The position numbers were made by a program, and so were the translations under genes. Below are positions 48,236 to 63,190 of a stretch of DNA of 64,000 nt, in pieces; the first letter of the stretch is position 1; the number at the start of each line of letters is the position of its first letter. The notes below the pieces were generated by a model that did no database searches, was not told where the DNA came from, and saw only the letters and a program-made list of their open reading frames with translations. This stretch comes from Oscillospiraceae bacterium (lineage in GTDB: Bacteria; Bacillota; Clostridia; Oscillospirales; CAG-272): NCBI GenBank assembly GCA_015064355.1, contig SVSJ01000009.1, forward strand, positions 1 through 64,000. The letters are read 5' to 3'.

Positions 48236-48270
48236 AAAAACCGGAGGTTTTATCCTCCGATTTTTTTATT
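48234..48270. terminator. Bidirectional terminator
   Basis: AAACCGGAGG-TTTTAT-CCTCCGATTT flanked by A-rich and T-rich tracts between the kinase (+) and the cyclic-di-GMP protein (-). Confidence 0.85.
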
Positions 48271-51200
48271 TTGTTTCAGCATTTCTGCACATAAGGAGCC
48301 AAGCATTTTTGCCGTGCCAGTGGATGTTGTTTGCATTAGCACTTACGTCAAGGTTAAGGTGCGGGTTCTTGATGGTCGTAACTCTGTCACCGCTTTCTAC
48401 CGCGATCGGGCAGTTCGGGCATGGTGCATCTCTGCCCATAAACACCTTGTAACACTTTTGACCGGGTTCCGCACTTGGCACAAGCTCACGTGCTCTGCGG
48501 TTGAGGAACTTAAGCTCGTACGTCTCAGGCTCTACAATGTAGGTCCAGCTGTACTGGCTGTTGAGCACGTTCTGAATATCCTCGAACGTTCTGGTGTTTT
48601 CCTCTTTACCTCTTTGCTTCAGCAGGAACAAAGATATGGTCTGGCTCAGAAGCACGAGAATATCAATCTGCTCCTTTGTCCAAAGTCTTGCTGAATTGTT
48701 GTCGTCAAATCCAACGTAACCTCGGAACTCGCCGTTATCAAGAATAGCACACTGAAGCATTGAGCAAATATTCTGGGGACCGAGAATGTCCTGCAGATGC
48801 TGTGCAAGCTTGGTTACGTCAGGCACATAGAAAATTCCGTCTTCATCGAACAGATCCTGGTATCCGGGAATGTCCGTAATGTAGCTGACGTTCTGCAAAT
48901 TGTCCTTCTCGCTACTGATTCCGACATTACACCACTCAAACGTGTTACTGCACTCGGTGTTATCTGCGTTGTTTTCAAATATATACACGCGGCTTACGTT
49001 AAGCTGGCGTCCAACTATTTCTATAAGGGAGTTGATGGTTCCCTCGAAGTCTCCGGACTCGTAAAGACGGTTGAACACGTAATGAGAAAGGTTGTTCCCC
49101 GCAAGTCCCAGATCTCTGTCCGAGTCGATCCGGCGGTTAACCATAGTCGCAATAACGTTGCCTGATACGCTTGAATCATAAATAGCGTAGCGGTTCTTGC
49201 CCATCTGCTTTGCGTGATACAATGCACGGTCAGCGTTCTGGAGCAGTACCTTATACGACTCGCCGTGATAAGGCGCAAGAGAAACGCCAACGGAACAAGT
49301 GAAATCGTTTTTTTTCAGGTATTCCCTGCAAATGCTCTGGATCATGCCGATAAGAGCCGCACATCTGTTTTCCACAAGACTCCTGTCGGGAATATTGTTC
49401 ATAAACACAAGGAACTCGTCGCCGCCGATTCTTGCAGTCACATCAGTGCCGCGGAACATCCACGAGATCTCAGACGCAACTCTCATAAGGATCGTGTCAC
49501 CGTACAGATGTCCGTACTGCTTGTTGATCTCCTTGAAGTTGTCAAGGTCAATTATGAGCAGCGCAGACAGGGATGATCTACCGGTTTCGAGGCGCACGTC
49601 GATCTGTCTCTTGGCCGCCTCGCTGTTGAGAAGCTTGGTAAGAGGATCGCGGTCTGCATTGTCATCAATAGATGAGAACAGGCTTCTTTCGTTGTCCACG
49701 CAGATCACAGAACCTATCATGCCGATAACAGCGCCCTCTCTGTTAAAGCGGGTAGCAACGCGTACACGGAACCAGCTGTATTTTCTGGTAGCATTGGCGA
49801 TACGCACGTTGAACTCTGTGAATTTGCCGCCTCTTTTTAGGGCTTCGATCTCTTTTCTGAAAATAGCAATATCGTCCGGGTGAAGGAGCGCAAGATCGGT
49901 CACCTTTGTTGTGTTACCGTTTCGTTCAGTTCCGCGGAAGATGATCTTATCGTCCTTGATGTCCAAGAGGAACATAGCGTCTCCTGCCTGCTCCACAACC
50001 AGTCGGTAGAACTGCTGGAATGATACCAGGTCAGAATTACCTGATTTTGCAGCAGTTGAATCAAACAATGCTCCGTTTATATATTCAAGTCCGTCATCAC
50101 CCGTGGACAGTTTTCCCTTGAGAAGAAGCCATACCACACCGCTGTTCTTGTTATACACAGGAAGCTCCAAGGTAACGTCCACACCAATCTCAAGCTGCTC
50201 CTTGAGTCTTCCTGCAGCTTCGTCGAATTCAACCGGGATAATCAGCTCTGCAAGGCGGTTGCGGTGCAGCTCGCGCATCTCCTCCGTGGTATACCCGAGA
50301 AGCTCGCAAATACCATCTGTACTTCCGGCAAGGGTAAGCCATCTGTCGTTAAGTATGGAAACTGGAATTCCGCCACCTATTGCTTCGGGTTGAAGGGCAC
50401 TTCCGCCCTGACTGCTTATACCAGCACTACCGCCCGATTCACCGGCTGGTTCCCATATTAGCAGTGCCCGTCTGTTCTTTGAGGAATCGTTAACACGCAG
50501 CGCTGTCACGTTATAGTAGGAATATGTACCGTCAGCGCCCTTGATGCGGTATCTGCGTGACTTTTTCCTCATTTCCGAGTCAAAGAACTCCTGAAGATAT
50601 GCGTCCATTCCCTCAGCAACCATCTCTCGGTCGTCGGGGTAAACCACCTCATTCGCCAGAAGCTCTCTTGCCTTATCCAAATTAACCGCACGGTTAAGAA
50701 TAGTAAGCTCCGGGTTGGGATTATACACCACGTGGAACAACTGACTGTCAAGATCTATTTCCACAACAGTTGCGTTCATATGATGCAATAGTACCTGGTA
50801 CTTTGAAAGTGCGTTTTGTACAGCATTTTCCTCCGCTCTGCTGGGTGGTTCAAGAGGAATGGTTATTGAATCAGACGCGGGAGAATATCCGTCCGAATAC
50901 TTGTTAGCCAAAGCCTCAAACTGGCCTGCTACAAGCTTGAAGCATTCAATAAGCTTGGGAGAGAATACTCCGCAGTCACCGCGCAAAATCATATTTGCCG
51001 CGTCCGTGCAGGAGTAGGCCTTTTTGTATACTCTTTCCGTGGTCAATGCGTCATAAACGTCGGCAAGTCCCACCACCTGGGCACAGATAGGTATATCGTC
51101 TCCTGCCAAACCGTCGGGATAACCCCGTCCGTCCCAGCGCTCGTGGTGATAACGGCAGATATTATATGCATATCGCATATACATATCATTGCCCATTGTT

Positions 51201-51937
51201 TCAACCCGCTGGAGAAGCCCGCATCCTGCTGTTGTGTGGGTCTTCATTATATCAAATTCTTCTCCGGTCAGCTTGCCGGCCTTGTTGAGAATTGAGTCGG
51301 AAATAGTGATCTTCCCAATATCGTGGAGAGAAGCAGCACTTGAAATAATGCTGATAGTTTCCTCTGTCAACCCGTACTCCGGGCAGCTACCTGCCACAGC
51401 CTCAAGCAAGATCTGCGTAAACCTGCGGATTCTCAAAATATGCTGGGCTGACTCCATGCTACGGCTTTCAATAATCGAAATAAGTGCGTCAACCATAACC
51501 TCGCTGGAGTGCATAAGAGCATCCTCCTGCTCTTTCACGAGGTTTCTGAGATTCCATTTATGAGAATGAAGTGTAATGAGATTTGATACTCTCTTGCTTA
51601 CGATTTCGGGATAGAATGGGTATGAGATCGTGTCGCCGGCACCATATTCGAAAGCAAAATACTCACTACGTGCATCTTGCTCGTCTATTACAGCAATAAG
51701 CGGAACGTCGCCGAAAACATCCTGCTTTCTTGTAAGGTCAGACTCCTTTGAAAGCAGCTCAATGCTGATAATTACGGCTACGATTGATTCACAATTCAGT
51801 TTGCCAAGAAAATCTGCCTGCTCGAAATTTCTGGCCTCGAGAATATTGTATTTTTCTTCAAATATTCTGCGTAGCTCATCCCGCTTCTCGGCAGAACCGT
51901 CAACAAGCAAAATAGTGTCGCGAATTTTTATCGACAT
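48266..51937 (-). CDS. Receiver/HD-GYP/PAS/GGDEF/GAF cyclic-di-GMP turnover protein
   Basis: A 1223-residue cytoplasmic signalling protein. Residues 1-125 look like a receiver domain (LLVDGSAEKRD), but the phospho-acceptor position reads IISIELL, with no Asp. HD-GYP follows (about 135-345), with HDIGK (205-209), YHHERWDGRGYPDG and intact GYP (272-274): a phosphodiesterase module. PAS-like segments fill about 375-755. GGDEF is intact (837-841), preceded five residues earlier by the I-site RGTD (828-831). A GAF-like domain and a Cys-containing PAS-like end (GRDAPCPNC) complete it. It can probably both make and degrade cyclic-di-GMP. It is divergent from the BTAD/dead-GGDEF regulator gene. Confidence 0.9.
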   Translation of the reverse strand: MSIKIRDTILLVDGSAEKRDELRRIFEEKYNILEARNFEQADFLGKLNCESIVAVIISIELLSKESDLTRKQDVFGDVPLIAVIDEQDARSEYFAFEYGAGDTISYPFYPEIVSKRVSNLITLHSHKWNLRNLVKEQEDALMHSSEVMVDALISIIESRSMESAQHILRIRRFTQILLEAVAGSCPEYGLTEETISIISSAASLHDIGKITISDSILNKAGKLTGEEFDIMKTHTTAGCGLLQRVETMGNDMYMRYAYNICRYHHERWDGRGYPDGLAGDDIPICAQVVGLADVYDALTTERVYKKAYSCTDAANMILRGDCGVFSPKLIECFKLVAGQFEALANKYSDGYSPASDSITIPLEPPSRAEENAVQNALSKYQVLLHHMNATVVEIDLDSQLFHVVYNPNPELTILNRAVNLDKARELLANEVVYPDDREMVAEGMDAYLQEFFDSEMRKKSRRYRIKGADGTYSYYNVTALRVNDSSKNRRALLIWEPAGESGGSAGISSQGGSALQPEAIGGGIPVSILNDRWLTLAGSTDGICELLGYTTEEMRELHRNRLAELIIPVEFDEAAGRLKEQLEIGVDVTLELPVYNKNSGVVWLLLKGKLSTGDDGLEYINGALFDSTAAKSGNSDLVSFQQFYRLVVEQAGDAMFLLDIKDDKIIFRGTERNGNTTKVTDLALLHPDDIAIFRKEIEALKRGGKFTEFNVRIANATRKYSWFRVRVATRFNREGAVIGMIGSVICVDNERSLFSSIDDNADRDPLTKLLNSEAAKRQIDVRLETGRSSLSALLIIDLDNFKEINKQYGHLYGDTILMRVASEISWMFRGTDVTARIGGDEFLVFMNNIPDRSLVENRCAALIGMIQSICREYLKKNDFTCSVGVSLAPYHGESYKVLLQNADRALYHAKQMGKNRYAIYDSSVSGNVIATMVNRRIDSDRDLGLAGNNLSHYVFNRLYESGDFEGTINSLIEIVGRQLNVSRVYIFENNADNTECSNTFEWCNVGISSEKDNLQNVSYITDIPGYQDLFDEDGIFYVPDVTKLAQHLQDILGPQNICSMLQCAILDNGEFRGYVGFDDNNSARLWTKEQIDILVLLSQTISLFLLKQRGKEENTRTFEDIQNVLNSQYSWTYIVEPETYELKFLNRRARELVPSAEPGQKCYKVFMGRDAPCPNCPIAVESGDRVTTIKNPHLNLDVSANANNIHWHGKNAWLLMCRNAETK

Positions 51938-52133
51938 ATTTGTTACTTCCTTCTTCGTAAATTGTGATTGTGCAGTGGATCACGGTCCTTGATATTTACG
52001 CATAAATACCATTCGTATATTTAAACAAATACCCAATTTTATTATACTTTATTTTATTTTTGATGTCAATAGACTATCAGTCGAATAATGGATATATATA
52101 CAGTGTTTGTTGTGATAATTAACATATTACGTA

Positions 52134-52162
52134 TTGACATTACAGGGTTTTATGTGTAAAAT
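52134..52162 (+). promoter_or_regulatory. Promoter of the BTAD/dead-GGDEF regulator gene
   Basis: TTGACA and TAAAAT with a 17-bp spacer, about 35 nt before GGAGG. The divergent region 51938-52208 is AT-rich and shows no other feature. Confidence 0.7.
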
Positions 52163-52208: not shown

Positions 52209-53405
52209 ATGGAAGAAACATCTGTAAAAGTATGTCTTTTCGGAGATCTTTCCGTTTCACTTGGAAATAACACTGTCACCTGCTCCGGCACCCGTTCAAA
52301 AAAGGTGTGGGATCTCCTTGCCTATTTGTTCTATCACCGCGGCAGAAGTGTAACAAGTGACGAGATCACCTCCCTTCTTTGGAGTAACACAGGCGAATCT
52401 CCTAAAAACGCAATGAAAACAGCTCTTCACCGGGCACGTTCCCTCCTTGACTCTCTTTCCGACGGTCTTGGTCACAAAGTCATTCTGTTCAAGGACGGGG
52501 GATATTCTCTTAGCCCGGATGTAAAAATCACAGTTGACGTGGAAGAGTTTGACAGCCTGCTCCGCTCTGCACGGGACGCAAGCCCGGATGAGGCAACCGA
52601 TATCTACCTACGTGCTATCTCCATTTACACGGGAGACTTTGCAAATATTCTTTCATCTGAATCATGGGTGATCCCTATTTCGGCATATTACCACAATCTC
52701 TATGTTATAACAGTTGAAAAAATCGTTCCAAAGCTTGAAGAAGCAAAGCGGTTCAAGGAAGGTGTTGATATTGCAAAAGCAGCACTTCGTGTTGATCCAT
52801 ATCACGAACACTTCTATCAGCTTCTTATGAGATGCCTCTTGCAGACCGGCGCACGGGACGAGGTAGTAACGGTTTACGAGGAAATGAGCAAGTTGCTTCT
52901 CTCCACATTTGGTGTTATGCCCGATAAGGAAAGCCGCAGTCTCTACAGAGAGGCTTTAAAAACCGTAAACATCAGCACCGTTTCCCCGGATGCAGTAAAA
53001 GAACAGCTTACGGAAATCGGGAATATCTCCGGCGCCCTCCTTTGCGACTACGATTTCTTTAGAATGATGTATCAAGCAAAAGCAAGAATGATTGCTCGCA
53101 CAGGGGATGCAATACATATCGCTCTTCTGACTCTGCAAAGCAGGACTAAATCTGATATTGCGCAAAAGAGCATTGAGATTGCTATGGATAATCTGGAAAA
53201 GCACCTGTGCGCCTCTCTCCGCAAAGGGGATCTGATCTCACGTTGCAGCGTATCACAGTTTGTGATCATGCTTCCACAGGCAAATTACGAAAACAGTTGT
53301 GCTGTTTGTCAGAGATTTATCGATTCATTTGAGAAAAAATACTCGCACTCCCCTCTCAAAATCAACTATTTTGTTCATTCGGTTACACCGTCAACGGATA
53401 ATTAA
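52209..53405 (+). CDS. Winged-helix BTAD regulator with degenerate GGDEF domain
   Basis: A 398-residue transcription factor of SARP-like layout. Residues 5-100 are an OmpR-type winged helix (KVWDLLAYLFYHRGRSVTSDEI; DGGYSLSP). Residues 108-255 are the TPR-like bacterial transcriptional activator domain (VEEFDSLLRSA, AALRVDPYHEHFYQLLMRCL). Residues about 275-390 align with a GGDEF fold, yet the active-site loop reads SVSQF (347-351) instead of GGDEF, so no cyclase activity is expected. The I-site RxxD is kept as RKGD (338-341), exactly five residues before it. It may therefore bind cyclic-di-GMP as a ligand. GGAGG precedes the ATG. It is followed 32 bp later by the transglutaminase lipoprotein gene. 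Confidence 0.8.
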   Translation: MEETSVKVCLFGDLSVSLGNNTVTCSGTRSKKVWDLLAYLFYHRGRSVTSDEITSLLWSNTGESPKNAMKTALHRARSLLDSLSDGLGHKVILFKDGGYSLSPDVKITVDVEEFDSLLRSARDASPDEATDIYLRAISIYTGDFANILSSESWVIPISAYYHNLYVITVEKIVPKLEEAKRFKEGVDIAKAALRVDPYHEHFYQLLMRCLLQTGARDEVVTVYEEMSKLLLSTFGVMPDKESRSLYREALKTVNISTVSPDAVKEQLTEIGNISGALLCDYDFFRMMYQAKARMIARTGDAIHIALLTLQSRTKSDIAQKSIEIAMDNLEKHLCASLRKGDLISRCSVSQFVIMLPQANYENSCAVCQRFIDSFEKKYSHSPLKINYFVHSVTPSTDN

Positions 53406-53437: not shown

Positions 53438-54655
53438 ATGCGATTCACCTTACGCAAAACAATAGCTTTGCTTGGTTTGGCAGCCCTTTTGTCAAGCTGT
53501 GGTGACGCGCGCATACCTGATGACACCCTCCCCCGTGACACAGAGCCGCCAGCGATAACCGAAGCTGATGCAACAGTTCCGGCAACAGAGTCGACAGTTA
53601 CGACCCCACCCGAGACCGAGGTGCAGGTAACAATTCCACCCGAAACAGAAGCGCCTATTACAACTGCACCGGAGACCGAATCACCCGCTACTCTTCCCCC
53701 GGAAACAGAGGCTCCCATAACAGCCCCACCGGAAACCATACCACCGGAGACGGAGATTCCGGGCTTTACTGAAATCGCAACCATAAACCCCGGCGAAATC
53801 GAAAACGAGGCTGACGCAATAAAGGATTCCCCTGCCATTGTAATACAGATTCCGGAGCTGCTCCAAGCCACCGCCCCCGGGCACGCAGAAAAAGACAGCG
53901 GCAGCGCGGTGATCGACTACTCAAACGTTACAGACGGTTACGTAACCGTGAAATATAAGCATAAAACCGGCACGCGAATCAAGGTGCAGATCAAGGGTCC
54001 GAAAACCACCTATACATATAACCTTAAACCTGAGGAATTAACGGTCTTCCCTCTCTCCGAAGGAAACGGAAAATACACCGTATCGGTTTACGAAAACGTG
54101 ACCGGCACGAAATACGCCACCGTTATATCAGCCTCATTTAATGCTAATTTGAAAAATGAGTTCGGGCCGTTCCTCTACCCCAACCAGTACGTTGACTACT
54201 CCCACGCACCAAATTCCGTAAACAAGGCATACGAGCTTACTGCAGGCTTGACCGACCCTCTCCAAATGGTAGCGGCAATATATGATTATGTTGTTGACAA
54301 TCTAACCTACGACAAAGAGAAGGCGGCTACGGTAAAAAGCGGTTACTTGCCGGAGTTAGACAAGGTGCTGGAAACAAAAACAGGCATTTGCTTTGACTAC
54401 GCAGCGCTGATGACCGGTATGCTACGAAGCCTCGGCATCCCCTGCAAGCTGGTTGTTGGGTATGCAGGTGATGCTTATCACGCCTGGATCAACGTGTGGT
54501 CAGAAAGCGAAGGCTGGATCGACGGAGCCATATTCTTTAACGGCACGTCCTGGCAGAGAATGGACCCCACCTTTGCCTCCTCCGCTCACCGTAGTCAAGG
54601 TATTATGGAATACATCGGTGACGGCAAAAATTACACCGAAAAATATCTTTACTAA
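53438..54655 (+). CDS. Transglutaminase-like lipoprotein
   Basis: A 405-residue lipoprotein: signal peptide with lipobox LSSC, then a Thr/Pro/Glu linker (about 25-110) of PPETEAPIT-type repeats, a beta domain (about 150-235), and a transglutaminase/protease-like core (about 270-385) with Cys in KTGICFDYAALM, His in GDAYHAWINVW and Asp in RMDPTF. Clostridial relatives are thought to act on wall peptides or surface proteins. AAAGGGG precedes the ATG. It is probably co-transcribed with the upstream regulator and ends just before the leader of the pilus operon. Confidence 0.87.
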   Translation: MRFTLRKTIALLGLAALLSSCGDARIPDDTLPRDTEPPAITEADATVPATESTVTTPPETEVQVTIPPETEAPITTAPETESPATLPPETEAPITAPPETIPPETEIPGFTEIATINPGEIENEADAIKDSPAIVIQIPELLQATAPGHAEKDSGSAVIDYSNVTDGYVTVKYKHKTGTRIKVQIKGPKTTYTYNLKPEELTVFPLSEGNGKYTVSVYENVTGTKYATVISASFNANLKNEFGPFLYPNQYVDYSHAPNSVNKAYELTAGLTDPLQMVAAIYDYVVDNLTYDKEKAATVKSGYLPELDKVLETKTGICFDYAALMTGMLRSLGIPCKLVVGYAGDAYHAWINVWSESEGWIDGAIFFNGTSWQRMDPTFASSAHRSQGIMEYIGDGKNYTEKYLY

Positions 54656-54760
54656 AAAAATGACAGAGTAATATACATAAGCAAAAGAGTTCAGTGTTTC
54701 TGTCAGAAAATCTGTGAGAAAACGAGCTTCTTGATCTTTTGACAGCTCGTTTTTTTGCCC
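54656..54760 (+). promoter_or_regulatory. Candidate RNA switch (attenuator) before the type IV filament operon
   Basis: Three segments can pair in mutually exclusive ways. TGACAGA (54661-54667) pairs with TCTGTCA (54699-54705). The overlapping segment CTGTCAGAAAATC (54700-54712) can instead pair with GATCTTTTGACAG (54733-54745), 13 bp with one mismatch and one G-U, which overlaps the 3' arm of the terminator. The terminator ends only 4 nt before the GGAG of pilC. This is the geometry of a transcriptional attenuator; no known aptamer was recognised. Confidence 0.45.
54719..54757 (+). terminator. Terminator in the pilC leader
   Basis: AAAACGAGCT, a 15-nt loop, AGCTCGT and TTTTTT. It stops transcripts from the transglutaminase gene, or acts as the off-state of an attenuator, immediately before pilC. 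Confidence 0.8.
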
Positions 54761-54771
54761 GGAGATAATTT

Positions 54772-55806
54772 ATGAAAAAACAAATCCTCTCATATTCAGA
54801 CATATCCGCCGTTTGCCTTGAGCTATCCCTGTTTATTCACGCAGGGGCAGACCCAAGCGCCGCTCTGATCATGCTGGCTGAAGAAACAAAAGCCCACTCT
54901 ATGAAGTCAGCCCTTTCCGAAATGGCTAAAAAAATTGACGAAGGCTCCCCTTTGTCTGCCGCAATCAAAGAATCGGGACTGTTCCCCGACGACGTGCACA
55001 AAATGCTTGTAATCGGAGAGAAAACAGGCCGAAGCGAGGATGTGCTTCGCTCCCTTTCGGCTTATTACGATCACAAGGACACCGCGGACCGTGAGCTTCG
55101 AGCCGCCCTTTTGTACCCGTCTATCCTTATGGCAGTAATGCTTTCGGTGATCGTTGTTCTGCTTACTAAGGTTTTGCCTATATTCAGCGATGTTTACGCA
55201 TCCTTGGGTGGGCAAATGACCGGTGTTGCGGGAGGACTCCTCCGATTCGGTCAGGTTCTTGATTCTGTTCTGCCCGGGATTTGTGTGTTTATTGGAATCG
55301 TCGCACTTATAATAATTGTCTTCGCTTCTTCCCAGGGATTCCGCAAAATAGTAAGTGATGCTTTTGATAAAATGGGGCAAAACAACGGAATCAGAAAGAA
55401 AACTGCCGCTGCAAAATTTGCCCAAGCACTTTCAATGTGTCTCCACAGCGGACTTACCCCTGCAGATGCCCTGGATATTGCCTCCGAGCTTTTGCCGGGT
55501 ACGGTTCAGGCTGAAGAATGCAAAAAAATGATGGAGAACGGTCTCTCCCTTGCTGATGCACTCCATGAATCCGGGCTTTTACCTGCTGCCGAATGCAGAC
55601 TTCTCGCCATAGGCTTCAAAAGCGGAAACAGCGAGGCAGTGGCTGATGAAATCACCCGTCGACTTGACAAGGACGCAAAAGAGGCTGTATCTCGACGCAC
55701 AGGAATGATCGAGCCTGCTATGGTGATAATCACCTCTGTTCTTATAGGATTGATCCTTCTGACAGTTATGCTTCCGCTCACCCACATTATGTCTTCTATA
55801 GGATAA
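54772..55806 (+). CDS. pilC: Type IV filament platform protein (PilC/GspF family)
   Basis: A 344-residue inner-membrane platform on which the assembly ATPase acts. It has two GspF repeats (about 10-130 and 210-330), each opening with a helical segment (CLELSLFIHAGADPSAALIML; FAQALSMCLHSGLTPADALDI), and three membrane helices near 115-140, 168-190 and 313-337. Length is as in compact ComGB-like members, shorter than the 400 of Gram-negative PilC. GGAG precedes the ATG. It heads the run PilC, four small membrane proteins, PilT. Confidence 0.9.
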   Translation: MKKQILSYSDISAVCLELSLFIHAGADPSAALIMLAEETKAHSMKSALSEMAKKIDEGSPLSAAIKESGLFPDDVHKMLVIGEKTGRSEDVLRSLSAYYDHKDTADRELRAALLYPSILMAVMLSVIVVLLTKVLPIFSDVYASLGGQMTGVAGGLLRFGQVLDSVLPGICVFIGIVALIIIVFASSQGFRKIVSDAFDKMGQNNGIRKKTAAAKFAQALSMCLHSGLTPADALDIASELLPGTVQAEECKKMMENGLSLADALHESGLLPAAECRLLAIGFKSGNSEAVADEITRRLDKDAKEAVSRRTGMIEPAMVIITSVLIGLILLTVMLPLTHIMSSIG

Positions 55807-55817
55807 TCAGACGACTT

Positions 55818-56135
55818 ATGAAACAAAAATTCAAGCTAAATTTTCTGTGGCCGGTTTTGTTCTTTGCCATAATCGCCGCAGTCATAGTCTCATTTGCACT
55901 TGCAATGGACGATCTGGCGGATAATCAGAATGAAGAACACAGGCTCCGTCTTGAGGAATCTGTCAGATTAGCCGCCGTTTCTTGCTATGCAAACGAGGGA
56001 AAATATCCGAAGGACCTTGATTATCTGGTGGAACACTACGGAATTCAGATAGACACCGATCGCTATACCGTTTATTATGAAGTGTTCGCGGAAAATCTGA
56101 TGCCCGAAATTACGGTGGTGGAACAAAATGACTAA
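55818..56135 (+). CDS. Small pilin-like membrane protein A
   Basis: A 105-residue protein with a short basic N-terminus, a membrane helix (about 8-30) and a helical-then-beta outer part: RLEESVRLAAVSCYANEGKYPKDLDYLVEHYGI has the amphipathic helix and CYAxEGxYPxxLxYL pattern seen in pilin-like clostridial proteins. No canonical prepilin cleavage motif is visible. It is 11 bp after pilC and overlaps the next gene by 8 bp. Confidence 0.7.
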   Translation: MKQKFKLNFLWPVLFFAIIAAVIVSFALAMDDLADNQNEEHRLRLEESVRLAAVSCYANEGKYPKDLDYLVEHYGIQIDTDRYTVYYEVFAENLMPEITVVEQND

Positions 56136-56592
56136 CCATTCATCAAAACGAAATCTCATTGGACTTGTTCCGATTCTGCTGTTTGTGATCCTGGCGGCAT
56201 CTGTTCTGTCGATCCTTTTGAGTAGCGCTGACACCTACGCTTCCATTACGGAAAGAGGCAATTCCACCTACACCACGCGCACCGCTGCCCAGTATATTTC
56301 AACCAAGCTCCATCAATCAGATGGAGTAGTCGGTGTTGAGATCTTCGGTCAGGATACTGCTGTGACTATTACGGAAACCATAAATAATCAGGAATATATT
56401 ACCCGAATCTACTGCTACGAGGGATATCTGTATGAGCTGTTTTCTAATGCCCTTGCGGATATGTCTCCGGAGGACGGCGAAAAGCTTTTGCCAATGGACT
56501 CCATGACCGCCACCGTTGACAATGGGCTTCTGACAATTGATATTGCGGGGCAAAGGATTGTTTTTGCCATACGCGCAAATAAGGAGGGGTGA
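56128..56592 (+). CDS. Small membrane-anchored filament protein B
   Basis: A 154-residue protein: one membrane helix (about 10-33), a Thr/Gln-rich helix (NSTYTTRTAAQYISTKLHQSDG), then a beta-rich head. The layout resembles DUF4860-type proteins of clostridial type IV filament loci; that family name is a guess. The gene overlaps its upstream neighbour by 8 bp and is followed after 2 bp by the next, so it belongs to the operon. Confidence 0.65.
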   Translation: MTNHSSKRNLIGLVPILLFVILAASVLSILLSSADTYASITERGNSTYTTRTAAQYISTKLHQSDGVVGVEIFGQDTAVTITETINNQEYITRIYCYEGYLYELFSNALADMSPEDGEKLLPMDSMTATVDNGLLTIDIAGQRIVFAIRANKEG

Positions 56593-56594
56593 AC

Positions 56595-56981
56595 ATGAAG
56601 AATAAATCCCCCCTCCAAATGATTGAATTCGTTATAATGCTTTTGGTGTTTGCGGTGCTGTCCGCGCTGTGCCTTCGCACTTTCTTCTACGCAAATGGAA
56701 TCTCAACGAAAACCGCCCTACGAGATGAGGCGATAATTGAAGCCCAAAACACAGCGGAGCTTCTCTCTTATCACAAGGGAGACTTTTCAGCCGGGGAAAT
56801 TGATGCGACTGCCTTGACTGACGGCCACTGGCAGATTGAACACGAAAATTTCACCATTGATATTGTAGCGACAGAGTCAGGCTCTCCCCTCCTTGCTGTT
56901 TACACAATAACCGCCACGGATAATAGCGGAGAAATACTGGCCGAGTTCCCTGTGTCCTGGCAGAAGGAGGTCGCAAAATGA
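56595..56981 (+). CDS. Small pseudopilin-like protein C
   Basis: A 128-residue protein with a pilin-like start: short Lys/Ser leader, then MIEFVIMLLVFAVLSALCL, a hydrophobic helix beginning near a Glu as in pseudopilins, an amphipathic helix (TALRDEAIIEAQNTAELL) and a small beta domain. No GFxxxE consensus is present. The ATG at 56595 is spaced 7 nt from AAGGAGG; a GTG two codons earlier is too close to it. It overlaps the next gene by 4 bp (ATGA). Confidence 0.7.
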   Translation: MKNKSPLQMIEFVIMLLVFAVLSALCLRTFFYANGISTKTALRDEAIIEAQNTAELLSYHKGDFSAGEIDATALTDGHWQIEHENFTIDIVATESGSPLLAVYTITATDNSGEILAEFPVSWQKEVAK

Positions 56982-57376
56982 AAAAAGAACGACGATCCTT
57001 CCCTCTCATCGGCGCCAGTTCTCTGATCGTGATCTTTGCGGTAGTGTGCCTTACCGTGTTTGCAATGCTTTCGCTAAACACTACCCTGGCAGGTGAGCGA
57101 CTTTCGCAGAAAAATGCTGACTCTACCGTGGAATATTACAAAGCCGAGGCGGCTGCACAGGAGATCCTCGCGAAAATCCGTGCCGATGAAACACCCTCCG
57201 AAGTGCAGCGCGCAGGCAACGTATATACATACTCCTGCAAGGTATCTGAGGGCAAAGAATTATTCGTAAACGTTACTGTGAACAGTGCAGATGACTACAA
57301 TATCAATATCTGGCAAGTTCGCTGGACTGACGACTGGACTCCCGACGACAGCATCAACGTCTGGGACGGAAACTAA
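56978..57376 (+). CDS. Small membrane-anchored filament protein D
   Basis: A 132-residue protein. The N-terminus FPLIGASSLIVIFAVVCLTVFAMLSL is one membrane helix, followed by a long amphipathic helix (AGERLSQKNADSTVEYYKAEAAAQEIL) and a short beta part. The pattern recalls PilX-like minor pilins. It starts within the stop of the preceding gene (ATGA overlap) and ends 22 bp before pilT. Confidence 0.68.
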   Translation: MKKERRSFPLIGASSLIVIFAVVCLTVFAMLSLNTTLAGERLSQKNADSTVEYYKAEAAAQEILAKIRADETPSEVQRAGNVYTYSCKVSEGKELFVNVTVNSADDYNINIWQVRWTDDWTPDDSINVWDGN

Positions 57377-57398
57377 ACCATTAACAGAGGTAAAACAT

Positions 57399-58457
57399 AT
57401 GACTGAAGTAACCGAATATCTCCGTTTAGCTGTAGAAAACGGCGCTGCTGATATTTTCTTTGTGGCAGGAAGTCCTGCAAGCCAGAGGCTCAACCGACGT
57501 TTATCTCCGCTTCTTGAGGACAAGCTTTTGCCGGCAGATACCGAGCGGCTCATATCCGAGCTGTACTCTCTTGCGAAAAGGCCAATGGACGCATACACAA
57601 AGAACGGCGACGATGATTTCTCTTTTGCAATTCCGGGTCTCGCCCGTTTCAGAGTCAGCACTTACCGCCAGAGAGGCTCCCTTGCTGCGGTGATCAGAGT
57701 GGTAGCCTTTAATATCCCCGACTGGCAGGAGCTTGGTATTCCCCAGGCAGTTATGGATCTTTCCGAAGTTACAAGCGGCCTGGTTTTGTTTACGGGTACT
57801 GCCGGAAGCGGTAAATCCACTACCCAGGCTTGTCTTATTGACAGGATCAACAAAACCCGCGACTGCCACATTATCACACTTGAAGATCCCATTGAATTCC
57901 TCCACCGAAACGCAAAAAGCATTGTGAGCCAACGTGAGATCGCAATTGACACTACTGATTATCTTTCGGCTCTCAGAGCATGTCTCCGTCAGGCACCCGA
58001 CGTTATTCTCCTTGGTGAGATGCGTGATGCGGAAACAATCCGTACTGCTATGACTGCCGCCGAAACAGGTCACACCGTGATCGCAACACTCCACACCAAG
58101 GGTACGGTGAACAGCATTGACCGTGTTGTTGACGCATTCCCTGCCGAGCAGCAAGGACAGATCCGTATTCAGCTTGCGTCGGTCCTTAACACCGTAGTTT
58201 CCCAACAGCTTGTTCCATCTGTAGACGGCGGTCTCATTTCTGCATTCGAAATTATGACCTCAAACAACGCTGTAAAGAATCTGATTCGCGACGGCAAAAC
58301 CCACCAGCTTCCTGCAACCATTGCTTCATCAAGCGGAGACGGTATGCTCTCAATGGATCAGTCACTTCTGGATCTTTACGCCGGTGGAAAGATCACAAAA
58401 GAAACCGCCATTCAATATGCTGACAATCCCGAGCAGATAAAACGCAGACTTCAATAA
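57399..58457 (+). CDS. pilT: PilT-type ATPase of type IV filaments
   Basis: A 353-residue hexameric secretion ATPase. N-terminal PAS-like domain to about 100, then Walker A GTAGSGKST (133-141), Asp box ITLEDPIEF, Walker B with VILLGEMRD (202-210), His box TGHTVIATLHT (223-233) and the late helix AVKNLIR (291-297) that is diagnostic for PilT retraction motors. No PilB-type extension ATPase (with its zinc-binding tetracysteine) is in the operon or window, so this protein may power both directions or rely on a distant PilB. GAGGT precedes the ATG at 57399; upstream in-frame starts lie within the previous gene. Confidence 0.93.
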   Translation: MTEVTEYLRLAVENGAADIFFVAGSPASQRLNRRLSPLLEDKLLPADTERLISELYSLAKRPMDAYTKNGDDDFSFAIPGLARFRVSTYRQRGSLAAVIRVVAFNIPDWQELGIPQAVMDLSEVTSGLVLFTGTAGSGKSTTQACLIDRINKTRDCHIITLEDPIEFLHRNAKSIVSQREIAIDTTDYLSALRACLRQAPDVILLGEMRDAETIRTAMTAAETGHTVIATLHTKGTVNSIDRVVDAFPAEQQGQIRIQLASVLNTVVSQQLVPSVDGGLISAFEIMTSNNAVKNLIRDGKTHQLPATIASSSGDGMLSMDQSLLDLYAGGKITKETAIQYADNPEQIKRRLQ

Positions 58458-58462
58458 AAAAC

Positions 58463-58500
58463 AGCCGAGATACCCAAATGGGTGCCTCGGCATTTTATTA
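58463..58500. terminator. Bidirectional terminator
   Basis: GCCGAGATACCCA-AA-TGGGTGCCTCGGC flanked by AAAAAACA and ATTTTATTATT, between pilT (+) and the PAS/GGDEF gene (-). Confidence 0.85.
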
Positions 58501-59838
58501 TTCTTCATTTGCGAAGTAAGCACAGTGTTTTCCATGGTTCTTTGCGCGGTACATTGCCCGGTCTGCTTTCTCAAAAAGCTCGTCTACGGTATATCCGTCA
58601 ACACCGTAAATACTTATTCCTATACTTCCGGAAACGTCAAGTGCACTAAGCTCACTGCATACATTTTTTAGGGAACCCACCAACGTTTCGGACTTGTCTC
58701 TTACTATATCTGCGCCGGAGATGTTCTTCATGAGTACCATAAACTCATCTCCCCCCACGCGTCCCACGAGATCGCTTTCGCGGAAGCATTCACGAATAGC
58801 TGCGGCAAATCTGGCAATGAACACGTCTCCCGCCTGGTGGCCGTATGTATCGTTGACTCTCTTGAAATTGTCAGCATCAATAACGAACAGGGCGTGCAAG
58901 TCTCCCTCACCGCTCTTGTCAAGGAAAGCCTTGGCGTATTTAAGCACAGCCGCTCGATTGAACAGACCTGTCATATCGTCTCTTTCCGCTGCCCACACAA
59001 GATTTCTCTCGTTCTCCTTCTGGGAGTGAATGTCACGCACGATAAGCATGGCGCACATATGGCTGTTTGATGGGTCTACCATGAACCTGATCTCGTCACG
59101 CACCCAGCGGTGTGATCCGTCTGAGAACCTGCGGACATATTCCAAGGTGAAGTCCCGCTTGCCGTTTGCGTAAATATCTCTCAAGGAATCTTTGGAGAAA
59201 TATCTGTAGAATGCGTATGCAGGGTCTTTTCTGTCTACAACGTTGCTGTACGCCGCCTGAATAAGTGCATCTATGTTTTCGTGGGCATCAAGGGAGTAAC
59301 CGTCGATGGTCTGGAGACGCTCCGTAATAACGCGCCAAGTGTTAATATCAATAAATGCAGCAAAGTATGTGTCATCCGGTAAATCAAACAAATACTCTAT
59401 CTCCGCCTGGTGATTCTGGTTTGCAAGATACTCGCGTGTTATATCACGGCTTACACCTGCAATACCAATGGGTTTTCCCTCTGCATCCTTAAGAACGTAC
59501 TTGGATGTGGAGCCGTATCTGGGTTGTCCGTTTTCATCGGGTAAGGGTTCGATATAGTCAAGTCTGTCCTCTCCTGTTGCCAGAAGCTTCGCATCGTCCG
59601 CAACATAACGTCTTGCAAGATTCTTGTCCTCAAATATATCATAGTCAGAGTGACCGATTATTTCTTCTCTGACATTCTTCCCTACCAGCTTAGTAAAGGG
59701 TACGCTCGCCGCCTGATACACGTGGTTAATGTCCTTCACAAACACCATAGAGGGTGTATCGTCAAGGATCGCCTGAAATGCAGTAAGAAGCAGTCTGGTA
59801 TTTTTGCCCTCTTTCAGTATTTCATCAATGTTTTTCAT
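58498..59838 (-). CDS. PAS/GGDEF diguanylate cyclase
   Basis: A 446-residue cytoplasmic enzyme that makes cyclic-di-GMP from two GTP. A PAS domain (about 20-140: DDTPSMVFVKDINHVYQAAS; IGIAGVSRDIT) is followed by a second PAS-like region (145-275) and a GGDEF domain (280-446): DDMTGLFNRAA, VIDADNFKRVNDTYGHQAGD, and intact GGDEF (362-366) with I-site RESD (353-356) five residues before it, so product inhibition is expected. TGAGGTGA precedes the ATG. It converges on pilT and lies downstream of the sortase gene. Confidence 0.94.
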   Translation of the reverse strand: MKNIDEILKEGKNTRLLLTAFQAILDDTPSMVFVKDINHVYQAASVPFTKLVGKNVREEIIGHSDYDIFEDKNLARRYVADDAKLLATGEDRLDYIEPLPDENGQPRYGSTSKYVLKDAEGKPIGIAGVSRDITREYLANQNHQAEIEYLFDLPDDTYFAAFIDINTWRVITERLQTIDGYSLDAHENIDALIQAAYSNVVDRKDPAYAFYRYFSKDSLRDIYANGKRDFTLEYVRRFSDGSHRWVRDEIRFMVDPSNSHMCAMLIVRDIHSQKENERNLVWAAERDDMTGLFNRAAVLKYAKAFLDKSGEGDLHALFVIDADNFKRVNDTYGHQAGDVFIARFAAAIRECFRESDLVGRVGGDEFMVLMKNISGADIVRDKSETLVGSLKNVCSELSALDVSGSIGISIYGVDGYTVDELFEKADRAMYRAKNHGKHCAYFANEE

Positions 59839-59970: not shown

Positions 59971-60897
59971 TTATGACACTTCGTCTGCTGTGTAGATTCC
60001 GCTCTGTACGCAGTGGACCACCCAGCGGAAACGGCTGTCGCCACTCTGACTGCAGGTGGACAGGGTAAGAAGCTTATCGCCATCTTCAGCCGAGGGTTTT
60101 ATCCCTGCGTCAACCACAGATCTGCTGATGCAGAAATCTATGAGTGCCTGCTGCCCTTCTGTGTCATTTAATCCAAGTCGCCAGCTGGGTCCCTTTGCTT
60201 CTGCGTTATAGGCAGAAAAAACATCATATTTCAGCACACATCCGTCAATGAGAATGTAAACCGAGGGATGTTCTGCCAGAAATTCGGGATTATCGTATTT
60301 TTTCAGCGCGTTAAACATTGCGTCAATATACATACGGTGACCGTATATTATTGAGTGAAAATCACCGAAATCAGCTGATGAACGATAGTCCAGATATATC
60401 GATCCTACGCGGTTTTTCATTCCCTCCCATGAATAGTCCAGGTAATAAGAATTATCCTTTCCCTGGATCAAAGGGTACGAGATCGAGGTCCCGGGAATGC
60501 AGATCCATCCAATAACGTCAGGGTTTACTTTTCGCAGAGCCGCCACATCGGTTAGGAGAAGCTCAGCAGCAAACCCGTCAACCGGGATCTCAGGCTCATC
60601 TTCTACAGGTATTTCCGTTTCAGCGGTTTCATCCGGGATGATCGTTTGGGGAAGCTGTAGAATTGGGGTTGCGGGAATGTCCGTATCAAAAGCCACTGCT
60701 TCAGTTTTGGATGTGGTCACCTGAGGAGTTGACTTCGCTTCCGAGACTCCAAACTCGGGGGTATGAGCGATCTCCTTTGCCAGATCGTAAGATTCATCTG
60801 CGCGAATATAGTTTATGAGATGATTCCCGGCACCAAAGAGGCTGATAACAAACACAAAGGCAAGTATAATGGTCATTATTTTTTTTACTTTTTTCAT
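59971..60897 (-). CDS. srtB: Class B sortase (second), partner of the PEVTE-repeat protein
   Basis: A 308-residue membrane-anchored transpeptidase: membrane helix (about 8-28), a Thr/Pro/Glu linker to about 115, then the sortase core with VIGWICIPGTSISYPL, His in IYGHRM, Cys in LTLSTCS and Arg in SRFRWVVHC. It resembles the first sortase at 12350 in length and motif order. GAGAGGAG precedes the ATG at 60897. It lies 81 bp after the wall-anchored protein gene on the same strand, with a weak hairpin between, which makes that protein's VPLTG signal the likely substrate. Confidence 0.92.
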   Translation of the reverse strand: MKKVKKIMTIILAFVFVISLFGAGNHLINYIRADESYDLAKEIAHTPEFGVSEAKSTPQVTTSKTEAVAFDTDIPATPILQLPQTIIPDETAETEIPVEDEPEIPVDGFAAELLLTDVAALRKVNPDVIGWICIPGTSISYPLIQGKDNSYYLDYSWEGMKNRVGSIYLDYRSSADFGDFHSIIYGHRMYIDAMFNALKKYDNPEFLAEHPSVYILIDGCVLKYDVFSAYNAEAKGPSWRLGLNDTEGQQALIDFCISRSVVDAGIKPSAEDGDKLLTLSTCSQSGDSRFRWVVHCVQSGIYTADEVS

Positions 60898-60939
60898 TAT
60901 GTTGTATCTCCTCTCTGATAAATTTGTTGCTATAAAGGC

Positions 60940-60962
60940 TGAGGTGGGTTTTCCCCACCTCA
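60940..60962. other. Hairpin between surface protein and sortase genes
   Basis: TGAGGTGGG-GAAAA-CCCACCTCA on the minus strand. The downstream tract GCCTTTATAG is only weakly T-rich, so it may be a leaky terminator that keeps sortase levels below those of its substrate. Confidence 0.5.
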
Positions 60963-60978
60963 TTTTTGCCCTTATTGA

Positions 60979-63036
60979 TTATGCGTTTTCTTTTCTCTTC
61001 TTGTCTTTTCTCATTACGAGAAGTCCGATTCCGGAAAGAGCTGCGATTGCGAACCATGTAATGGAATCGCCTGTGAGGGGAACATCCTCATCGGGGATGT
61101 CGGTAAGAGGAACCTCCTCGTCACCGATGTCAACGAGATCACCATTGTCGTCGCCATCGTCGTTTCCATCATTGTCATCTCCGCCGTCGTCAGAGGTGGT
61201 GGGATCATCGCCTGCAGGATCATCGCCTATGGGTTCTGTAACTTCGGGTTCGGTTACTTCAGGCTCTGTAATTTCGGGCTCAATAACTTCAGGTTCGGTT
61301 TCAATAGGTCTTGTTATTTCAGGCCACTCGAATTCGGGTTCAGTTATTTCGGGTTCGGGTTCTGTAACAACAGGTTCGGTTTCAACGGGTTTGGGATATT
61401 CGGGATAGGTTTCAATCGGAATAGGCTCAATAATTTCCGGTTCCAATGTATCGGGTATGGTAAATTCGGTCTCGATTACTTCGGGTTCGGTAACTTCAGG
61501 TTCTGTAACTTCAGGTTCAGTAACTTCGGGCTCTGTAACTTCGGGTTCTGTTACTTCGGGTTCTGTTACTTCAGGTTCTGTTACTTCAGGTTCTGTTACT
61601 TCGGGTTCGGTTACTTCAGGTTCAGTAACTTCGGGCTCTGTAACTTCGGGTTCGGTTACTTCAGGCTCTGTTACTTCAGGTTCAGTTACTTCGGGTTCTG
61701 TAACTTCGGGTTCAGTTACTTCGGGTTCTGTTACTTCAGGTTCTGTAACTTCGGGTTCAGTTACTTCGGGGTCTGTAACTTCAGGTTCAGTTACTTCGGG
61801 TTCTGTAACTTCGGGTTCTGTAACTTCGGGCTCTGTTACTTCAGGCTCTGTCTCAACGGGAACTGCTACGTAAGAGTTAACAAATACAACAGCAGTATCG
61901 CCTTCGAGAGTGAAAGCTGCACTTGTTTCGCCGTCTACAGTGTTTCCGTCAATAGTTGCAGTTGTGGTTCTGGTGAAACCGTCGATATCAGGAGTGCCTT
62001 CTTCAATAACATAGTATGTTTCGTTGAGGCTCAATACTGTTGTACCGATAGCATTTGCGCCACCAGCCTGAACTGTGAGTCGAACAGTGTCAGCCTTATT
62101 TCCATCAGCGGTGTATACACCAAATACATATTCCTTGTTTTCTTCAAGAGCAACACCGGAAACGTTCTTCTGGATTGTTACTGTTGCTTCTGTGAGAACG
62201 GGCTCTTCCGGAGGATTTGCCGGATCGTCGGGAGTTGTAACTGTCTGGCTTGCACCAAGCTTGAAGTCCATACCGCCGTATACAAACTTGCCTGCTTTCC
62301 AGTCTCTTGTTCTGCTGGAGCTCTGTCTGATCGTCTCACAAATATTATCGCTGTGCCAGAAGTTAACTGTCTTTGAGAAGGTCATGGGAACAGAGATGAT
62401 TTCACCATCAATGTTAAAGTCAACATTCTTTACAAGGGAAATTGTGTAGTAAACCGGTCTTTCAGATGTACCAACCGGGAAATCACCGTTAAATCTGCGC
62501 TGGCCTGCGTCATAGATCTCAGTGCCGGTAATATTGAACGGAACGTCTGATGTAATGATGAGGTTGCCGTTGTAATAGTCTTCTGCATCCAGCTGAACGC
62601 TTGAGCTGTAAGACACGCCATCCAAAATGTAAGTTGCATTCAGAGCAATGTGAATGTCCAAATGAAGAGCAGAGTCTGTGTTCTCTACAACCTGCCACTG
62701 TGCCTTTGCGGGAGCAACAACTGTGCATCCTGCTTCGCTGTGAATATGCTCTTCGCAGTCGCCCCAATAACGACAGACCATACTGTGCCGATGCTCTTCT
62801 TTTCCGCAGTCATATTCTGCAGAAGTCATTTTGATGTACTTCCATTCGCCATTTGCGGGAATCTCGCCTGCCGGAGTGGTGTTCTTGCTATCGGAATAAG
62901 CGTAATCACCTATCTCATATGATTCTGTGCCACTTGCAAAAATACCGATTGACATTGTACCACACATAAGGGATACAACGAGGATGAGAGTAAGTACTGT
63001 TACTCCAAACTTTCTGAAATTAAATCTTTTTGCCAT
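60979..63036 (-). CDS. Wall-anchored PEVTE-repeat surface protein
   Basis: A 685-residue exported protein. Signal peptide 1-35; residues about 75-105 hold a Cys/His cluster ([21 protein letters not shown]) that could bind metal; then a beta-rich domain and a Cna-B/DUF5979-like domain (about 275-390: [26 protein letters not shown]). Residues 394-521 are about 25 PEVTE repeats, then more Glu/Pro/Thr and an Asp/Gly segment. The C-terminus is a sortase signal: VPLTG (652-656), membrane helix and [10 protein letters not shown] tail. AGAGAG precedes the ATG. Its leader holds a class I cyclic-di-GMP riboswitch. Probably an adhesin or surface stalk. Confidence 0.88.
61476..61858 (-). repeat. 15-bp coding tandem repeat (PEVTE)
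   Basis: About 25 in-frame copies of a 15-bp unit encode Pro-Glu-Val-Thr-Glu, with one Asp variant. Third positions vary (TCGGGTTC, TCAGGTTC, TCGGGCTC forms on the plus strand), so the array is kept by protein-level selection and repeated expansion, not by identical DNA. Copy number is likely to vary between strains. Confidence 0.93.
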
Positions 63037-63072: not shown

Positions 63073-63152
63073 TACCGGCGGCCGGGCTGGCATAGTCTTT
63101 CGACCTTAGCTCCCTGGCTTTGCGTCCCGCCCTTTCGGGAGGTTTGCCTTTT
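63072..63152 (-). ncRNA. Class I cyclic-di-GMP riboswitch (GEMM-I)
   Basis: On the minus strand the conserved blocks appear in order: GGCAAACC, P2 stem CTCCC-GAAA-GGGCGGG with GAAA tetraloop, ACGCAAAGCC, the tetraloop receptor CTAAGG, a short GAAA-capped hairpin, CTATGCC, and GCCCGGCCGCCGG. The aptamer ends about 36 nt before the start of the PEVTE-repeat protein. Class I aptamers bind cyclic-di-GMP with very high affinity. Confidence 0.93.
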
Positions 63153-63190
63153 ACTCGTATTTGCTTAATTTTTTTGCGCCTCGCGCTGTG

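Follow-up and report, generated by a model that had tools for sequence, protein, structure and literature searches.

Can a diguanylate cyclase domain that has lost its catalysis serve a transcription factor as its sensor? The question is raised by a 398-residue protein encoded in the window (the whole 64,000-nucleotide stretch of Oscillospiraceae DNA analysed here), which a first-pass annotation had read as a possible transcription factor responding to cyclic di-GMP (c-di-GMP). The same annotation had set its gene between a c-di-GMP enzyme and a type IV filament operon. Both do flank it, but a transglutaminase-like gene (53438–54655) intervenes before pilC, and the HD-GYP gene on the other side is divergent. 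The locus comprises the following features.

48266–51937, minus strand: 1,223-residue HD_5 (HD-GYP)/PAS/GGDEF/GAF protein (open reading frame, domain search), with one of the two GGDEF domains detected genome-wide
52041–52069, minus strand: sigma-70-like promoter match (12/12) 5′ of the divergent HD-GYP/GGDEF gene (consensus match only)
52134–52162, plus strand: sigma-70-like promoter match (11/12) 5′ of the regulator gene (consensus match only)
52209–53405, plus strand: 398-residue regulator with winged helix, BTAD and degenerate GGDEF domain (open reading frame, Pfam, AlphaFold2, structure match)
53438–54655, plus strand: transglutaminase-like lipoprotein gene, 32 bp 3′ of the regulator (open reading frame, Pfam)
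54772–55806, plus strand: PilC/GspF-type platform protein, T2SSF (open reading frame, Pfam)
55818–57376, plus strand: four small pilin-like open reading frames, so called from position and shape (hydrophobic stretch near the N terminus)
57285–58457, plus strand: PilT-like ATPase, T2SSE (open reading frame, Pfam)
58498–59838, minus strand: PAS-GGDEF diguanylate cyclase with intact GGDEF (open reading frame, domain search), the second of the genome's two detected GGDEF domains
59971–60963, minus strand: sortase
60979–63036, minus strand: 685-residue repeat-rich surface protein (VTEPE repeats)
63074–63158, minus strand: c-di-GMP-I riboswitch 5′ of the surface-protein gene; no other was detected in the genome

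The 271-bp gap between the regulator and HD-GYP genes holds promoters pointing both ways, as judged from a consensus scan alone. In the genome to which the window belongs (79.9% complete), only two GGDEF domains and a sole c-di-GMP-I riboswitch were detected, all in this locus, and the window yielded no c-di-GMP riboswitch apart from the one before the surface protein (adhesin). The VTEPE-repeat protein and the sortase gene after it lie under this riboswitch, a second c-di-GMP output of the locus. Only one pilus ATPase, PilT-like, was seen within the pilus operon (54772–58457). Between the transglutaminase gene and pilC (54721–54756), AACGAGCT...AGCTCGTT followed by a run of T is a possible terminator; it was picked out by eye and is unlisted in the scan, which had a loop limit of 8.

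The N-terminal half of the regulator is that of a BTAD winged-helix protein, as had been proposed for 52209–53405. The open reading frame lies at these coordinates, Pfam places Trans_reg_C at residues 30–99 (E = 3.6e-6) and BTAD at residues 109–248 (E = 2.1e-17), and residues 4–255 match the structures of AfsR (8k60_I; Z 21.0, rmsd 5.0, 240 aligned) and EmbR (2ff4_B; Z 20.0). By Pfam and structure match, the protein thus has the architecture of SARP/BTAD regulators of the AfsR/EmbR type, an N-terminal winged helix followed by BTAD. An origin by chance or as a frame artefact was excluded by full-length open frames in many genomes.

The Pfam GGDEF model (PF00990) matches the C-terminal part only weakly, at residues 328–384 (E = 0.0019 with the whole protein, and 2.2e-4 with the C-terminal piece alone, under Pfam's cut-off); of 40 family members submitted, 30 were matched at E <= 0.01, with the window protein under the curated cut-off. 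An AlphaFold2 model of the regulator, built on a 77-sequence alignment (mean pLDDT 91.3, pTM 0.67), matched GGDEF structures over residues 277–396 with Z 12–13.6, including PleD (2v0n_A; Z 13.4, 2.7 Å over 120 residues, PleD 296–424) and c-di-GMP-bound 3ign (Z 13.6, 3.5 Å over 125). Because pTM is only 0.67, the orientation of the domains to one another is not reliable in this model; a single-sequence model of the C-terminal part was poor (pLDDT 53) and was disregarded. A profile of 40 C-terminal domains, searched against PDB sequences, recovered GGDEF domains (best E = 1.3e-8). The GGDEF fold expected for the C-terminal ~120 residues is therefore confirmed at the level of a predicted structure and its matches, and the regulator qualifies for membership of the fold by the family profile as well. 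The domain ends at the position of PleD residue 424, and the final helix and strand of the usual GGDEF domain are therefore missing. The parts of the protein on which the following argument turns are these.

52218–52973, plus strand: AfsR/EmbR-like winged helix and BTAD, residues 4–255 (structure match, Pfam)
53037–53396, plus strand: truncated, catalytically dead GGDEF domain, residues 277–396 (AlphaFold2, structure match, profile)
53085–53099, plus strand: R293-x-x-x-R297, a pair in the domain's first helix that may form the other half of the ligand site (conservation, co-loss)
53220–53231, plus strand: RKGD (338–341), the RxxD motif of the I-site (sequence, family alignment, profile against PDB)
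53247–53261, plus strand: SVSQF (347–351) replacing GG(D/E)EF (sequence, family alignment)
53313–53315, plus strand: R369, placed relative to RxxD as R390 is in PleD (alignment, profile)

To sample the family, 77 contigs were gathered by a pattern over residues 279–288, outside the I-site, and further relatives by profile search of whole genomes (a class sample and a phylum sample). The loci examined contained 195 full-length family open reading frames, which came down to 174 after removal of duplicates and to 160 at a 90% identity limit; the 160-member set excludes copies that are split or broken (for example, L110 and L138). Of the 392 genomes sampled from the window's class, 44 have a full-length relative, counted as matches spanning both halves and including two split ones (G145 and G347), and the 49 positives of the phylum sample were selected likewise. 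A second set of 44 genomes, used for the riboswitch test and, with the 49 phylum positives, for a tally over 93 positive genomes, differs from the class positives in including G046, G001 and G023 and omitting G000, G145 and G347. G043 is outside the class sample.

The catalytic loop reads SVSQF, as annotated, and none of the 160 non-redundant relatives has GG at positions 347–348 or GG(D/E)EF. T308 occupies the place of the metal-binding D327 of PleD. On these grounds, an active diguanylate cyclase was excluded. Position 347 is S in 94 relatives and N in 41, and Q350 is kept in 127; retention of S347 and Q350 despite lost catalysis suggests that some constraint still acts on the former active-site loop. 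This conservation at the former active-site turn is not explained by c-di-GMP at the I-site.

The I-site, by comparison with the PDB, appears to have been retained. RKGD keeps the canonical spacing exactly, with five residues between RxxD and the GGDEF slot, where SVSQF starts at 347. R369 lies 31 residues C-terminal of R338, the spacing that separates R390 from R359 in PleD; in the alignment of the family profile with PDB sequences, the RxxD and the following (+31) arginine of SadC (4wxo) and 3ign align with R338/D341 and R369. The equivalent helix of 3ign has, at its end, an arginine that aligns in the same way with R297. We assume that R297 corresponds to R313 of PleD, the arginine of its secondary I-site, an equation that rests on sequence alignment without side-chain superposition.

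These residues are conserved to an unusual degree. Among the 160 non-redundant relatives, R338 is kept in 156, D341 in 159, R369 in 155, R297 in 150 and R293 in 148, bearing out the expectation that RxxD be conserved in orthologues; R338, D341 and R369 are kept jointly in 151. Over the full length of the regulator, conservation on a par with R338 and D341 is reached only at Y140, D110, F284 and W153. No exception to R338 or D341 occurs in the first 78 sequences, 77 of which also have R369, and with a median pairwise identity in this set of only 31%, conservation of the I-site, as judged from aligned sequences, exceeds chance. Members gathered by profile gave similar counts (R338 in 44, D341 in 46 and R369 in 47 of 47), in part overlapping the first 78. 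The invariant columns in an alignment of 40 C-terminal domains are C279, F284, R293, R297, R338, D341 and R369, of which C279 and F284 belonged to the search pattern. A dead site combined with a conserved RxxD five residues before it marks degenerate-GGDEF c-di-GMP receptors, and the regulator has both. For comparison, 38 canonical GG[DE]EF domains, taken only from the loci examined and not a random sample, have the residues equivalent to R338, D341 and R369 in 27, 29 and 13 cases, and all three in 10 (10 of 38 versus 151 of 160, Fisher p 4e-18, relatedness ignored).

The exceptions are informative. R338 is absent in four members (L127, N; L134, C; L224, G; L136, Q), spread over four taxonomic families (f43, f73, f221 and f26), and all four are among the ten relatives without R297 (hypergeometric 8e-6, relatedness ignored). 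Loss of R338 is thus always accompanied by loss of R297, as expected if both serve one shared ligand site.

To place the family in its genomic context, we analysed the neighbourhoods and genomes of its members. Type IV pilus genes (PilC/PilT) lie within about 10 kb of the regulator in 37 of the 77 contigs, and in these the transglutaminase-PilC-pilin-PilT operon adjoins the regulator gene in several arrangements, with the regulator upstream on the same strand, divergent or downstream of pilT. The four small pilin-like frames, too, are found beside the regulator in relatives' loci. The other 40 contigs show no pilus genes in the available stretch, some being merely short. At the level of whole genomes, GGDEF domains are present in 43 of the 44 class positives versus 252 of 348 other genomes (p 3e-5), and in 49 of 49 further positives from the phylum sample; PilT is found in 40 of 44 class positives versus 169 of 348 others (p 2e-8; relatedness ignored in both tests). 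Strong enrichment of GGDEF genes adjoining the regulator was not borne out: the flanks in the 77 contigs are only mildly enriched, with 11 GGDEF domains in 1.2 Mb, and this is not main evidence. The c-di-GMP-I riboswitch (RF01051) is present in 30 of the 44 family-positive genomes tested, and in 8 of the 44 it lies <=10 kb from the regulator, always on the regulator's strand, where about 0.7 would be expected. A model made from seven riboswitches found five in the 77 contigs, all in closer relatives of the window.

Individual loci vary in their composition. In L019 (9956–16906), a riboswitch about 260 bp after the regulator relative is followed by a 1,852-residue surface protein, and no pilus genes were found in the available stretch. 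L234 (3793–8998, from G377) contains, in order, a c-di-GMP-I riboswitch, a transglutaminase gene, the regulator and a VWA/SpaA tip-pilin-like surface protein; the G377 regulator may itself be under riboswitch control. L235 and L236 (G319 and G289) have the regulator, a GGDEF-HD_5 protein, a c-di-GMP-I riboswitch and a repeat-rich reading frame; the Pfam scan, which covered the L235 frame, gave Flg_new/InlB-type repeats there. In G678 (G678:C1:1721199-1722942), a GGDEF match and a regulator match share a strand, the former ending about 95 bp upstream of the latter; another regulator is about 4 kb away.

The earlier interpretation, a transcription factor that reads c-di-GMP, is supported by R369, the RxxxR pair, the co-loss of R297 and R338, co-occurrence with GGDEF domains, pilus synteny and nearby riboswitches, with ligand binding and DNA binding inferred. 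We consider it probable that the regulator governs transcription of type IV pilus and adhesin genes under the control of c-di-GMP, its ligand binding and DNA targets again being inferences.

The same conservation could be read without any ligand. If the dead GGDEF domain were a mere dimerisation or interaction module, R338, D341 and R369 would be kept for salt bridges in the fold or interface and nothing would be sensed. No binding data exist, and certain degenerate GGDEF domains, such as that of FimX, bind no c-di-GMP. The G243 relative (L124), in a 99% complete genome with no GGDEF domain, PilT or c-di-GMP-I riboswitch detected, yet keeps all three residues, which counts against c-di-GMP gating. 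However, canonical GGDEF domains vary at the arginines in question (−9, present in 27 of 38; +22, in 13 of 38), so the fold does not require them; the G243 protein has Y in place of R297, as well as G for S347 and I for Q350; R297 is gone in four of four R338 losses; and GGDEF domains occur in 92 of 93 positive genomes. We therefore regard a module without a ligand as unlikely. Sensing of some other nucleotide (pGpG, ppGpp, GTP or a cyclic dinucleotide other than c-di-GMP, for instance), whether at the former I-site or at the conserved S-x-[ST]-Q loop of the lost active site, would accommodate the conservation at positions 347 and 350, and the PDB lists PleD structures with ppGpp (9g85), but given that the triad fits a c-di-GMP I-site, that GGDEF domains co-occur in the class sample and that c-di-GMP-I riboswitches lie nearby, we think this very unlikely.

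It is also conceivable that c-di-GMP is bound and that transcription of the pilus operon is not controlled, the regulator acting on other genes, or on pilus proteins directly, and the synteny reflecting operon history. The variable orientation towards the pilus operon, the 40 of 77 contigs without pilus genes seen and the relatives that instead adjoin riboswitch-led surface-protein genes are all compatible with this. Against it, the association survives rearrangements, PilT is present in most class positives (40 of 44) and the N-terminal half resembles the DNA-binding unit of AfsR, leaving this an unlikely possibility.

For a c-di-GMP-gated transcription factor, we propose the following mechanism. 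As in AfsR, the winged helix and BTAD would provide DNA binding and the contact with RNA polymerase, and the C-terminal domain would be a diguanylate cyclase descendant that has lost catalysis and substrate binding and retained the product-binding inhibitory site as a sensor. We infer that c-di-GMP, probably as an intercalated pair, would link the RxxD/R369 site in one protomer with the R293/R297 pair in a second and so form or stabilise a DNA-binding dimer. The inferred targets are the promoters of the regulator, transglutaminase and pilus genes and the surface-adhesin genes; SARP proteins typically activate, which makes activation likelier than repression, although this, too, is inferred. 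The two flanking enzymes, HD-GYP/GGDEF and PAS-GGDEF, would determine the c-di-GMP level, and the locus would read the messenger twice: the regulator on behalf of the pili, the riboswitch on behalf of the adhesin.

More broadly, and with little more than even confidence, we suggest that these proteins constitute a widespread, apparently undescribed Bacillota class of one-component c-di-GMP transcription factors, each a SARP-type unit with a retired cyclase as its sensor, in which c-di-GMP staples RxxD and R369 to the RxxxR (293/297) of the other protomer. Such a class would be the protein counterpart of pilus/adhesin riboswitches, with one messenger read by RNA and protein in one compact locus. 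Known c-di-GMP control in Clostridia runs mainly through riboswitches, and a DNA-binding receptor tied to pilus/adhesin loci, if true, would supply the missing protein effector there and show an enzyme's product-inhibition site becoming the sensor of a transcription factor. The proposal can be tested one residue at a time, and in a few cultured organisms; cultured relatives with an orthologue include Flavonifractor sp. An100 and Anaerotruncus massiliensis AT3.

Receptors built on a dead GGDEF domain are already established, as are transcription factors that sense c-di-GMP; for a winged-helix/BTAD (SARP) protein with a GGDEF domain as sensor, no report was found in the accessible text of the literature searched, reviews included. 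AfsR and EmbR share the winged helix and BTAD with the regulator (Z 20–21 over 240–246 residues). After the BTAD, AfsR has NTPase/TPR and EmbR an FHA domain, where the regulator instead has a dead GGDEF domain. PopA of Caulobacter and PelD of Pseudomonas are degenerate-GGDEF c-di-GMP receptors that use an RxxD I-site as sensor, according to the available portions of the sources (PMC12564702, PMC10519070, PMC10333796). SgmT of Myxococcus and YdaK of Bacillus are, within the same limits, further such receptors, and all four have a dead active site and a retained RxxD I-site in common with the regulator. None of the four is presented as a DNA-binding transcription factor in those portions, unlike the role proposed here, and their architectures differ: PopA is REC-REC-GGDEF, PelD a membrane GAF-GGDEF protein and SgmT a histidine kinase, whereas the regulator is a fusion to winged helix and BTAD. 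YdaK is membrane-bound. The GGDEF domain of the regulator is also shorter than those of this type, lacking the final helix and strand.

BldD, VpsT, FleQ, MrkH and BrlR are c-di-GMP-gated DNA-binding proteins, as proposed for the regulator, but sense the messenger through folds other than GGDEF: a receiver domain in VpsT, PilZ in MrkH, AAA+ in FleQ and the C-terminal domain in BldD. BldD is dimerised by c-di-GMP, as described in the accessible part of its report (PMC4151990). In Clostridioides difficile, the c-di-GMP-II riboswitch Cdi-2-4 lies before pilA1, and the mechanism for many c-di-GMP-responsive genes is termed unclear in the portion of that source available (PMC6200980). The likeness to the role proposed here is control of clostridial type IV pili by c-di-GMP; Cdi-2-4 is an RNA sensor acting in cis, whereas for the regulator locus we propose a protein sensor.
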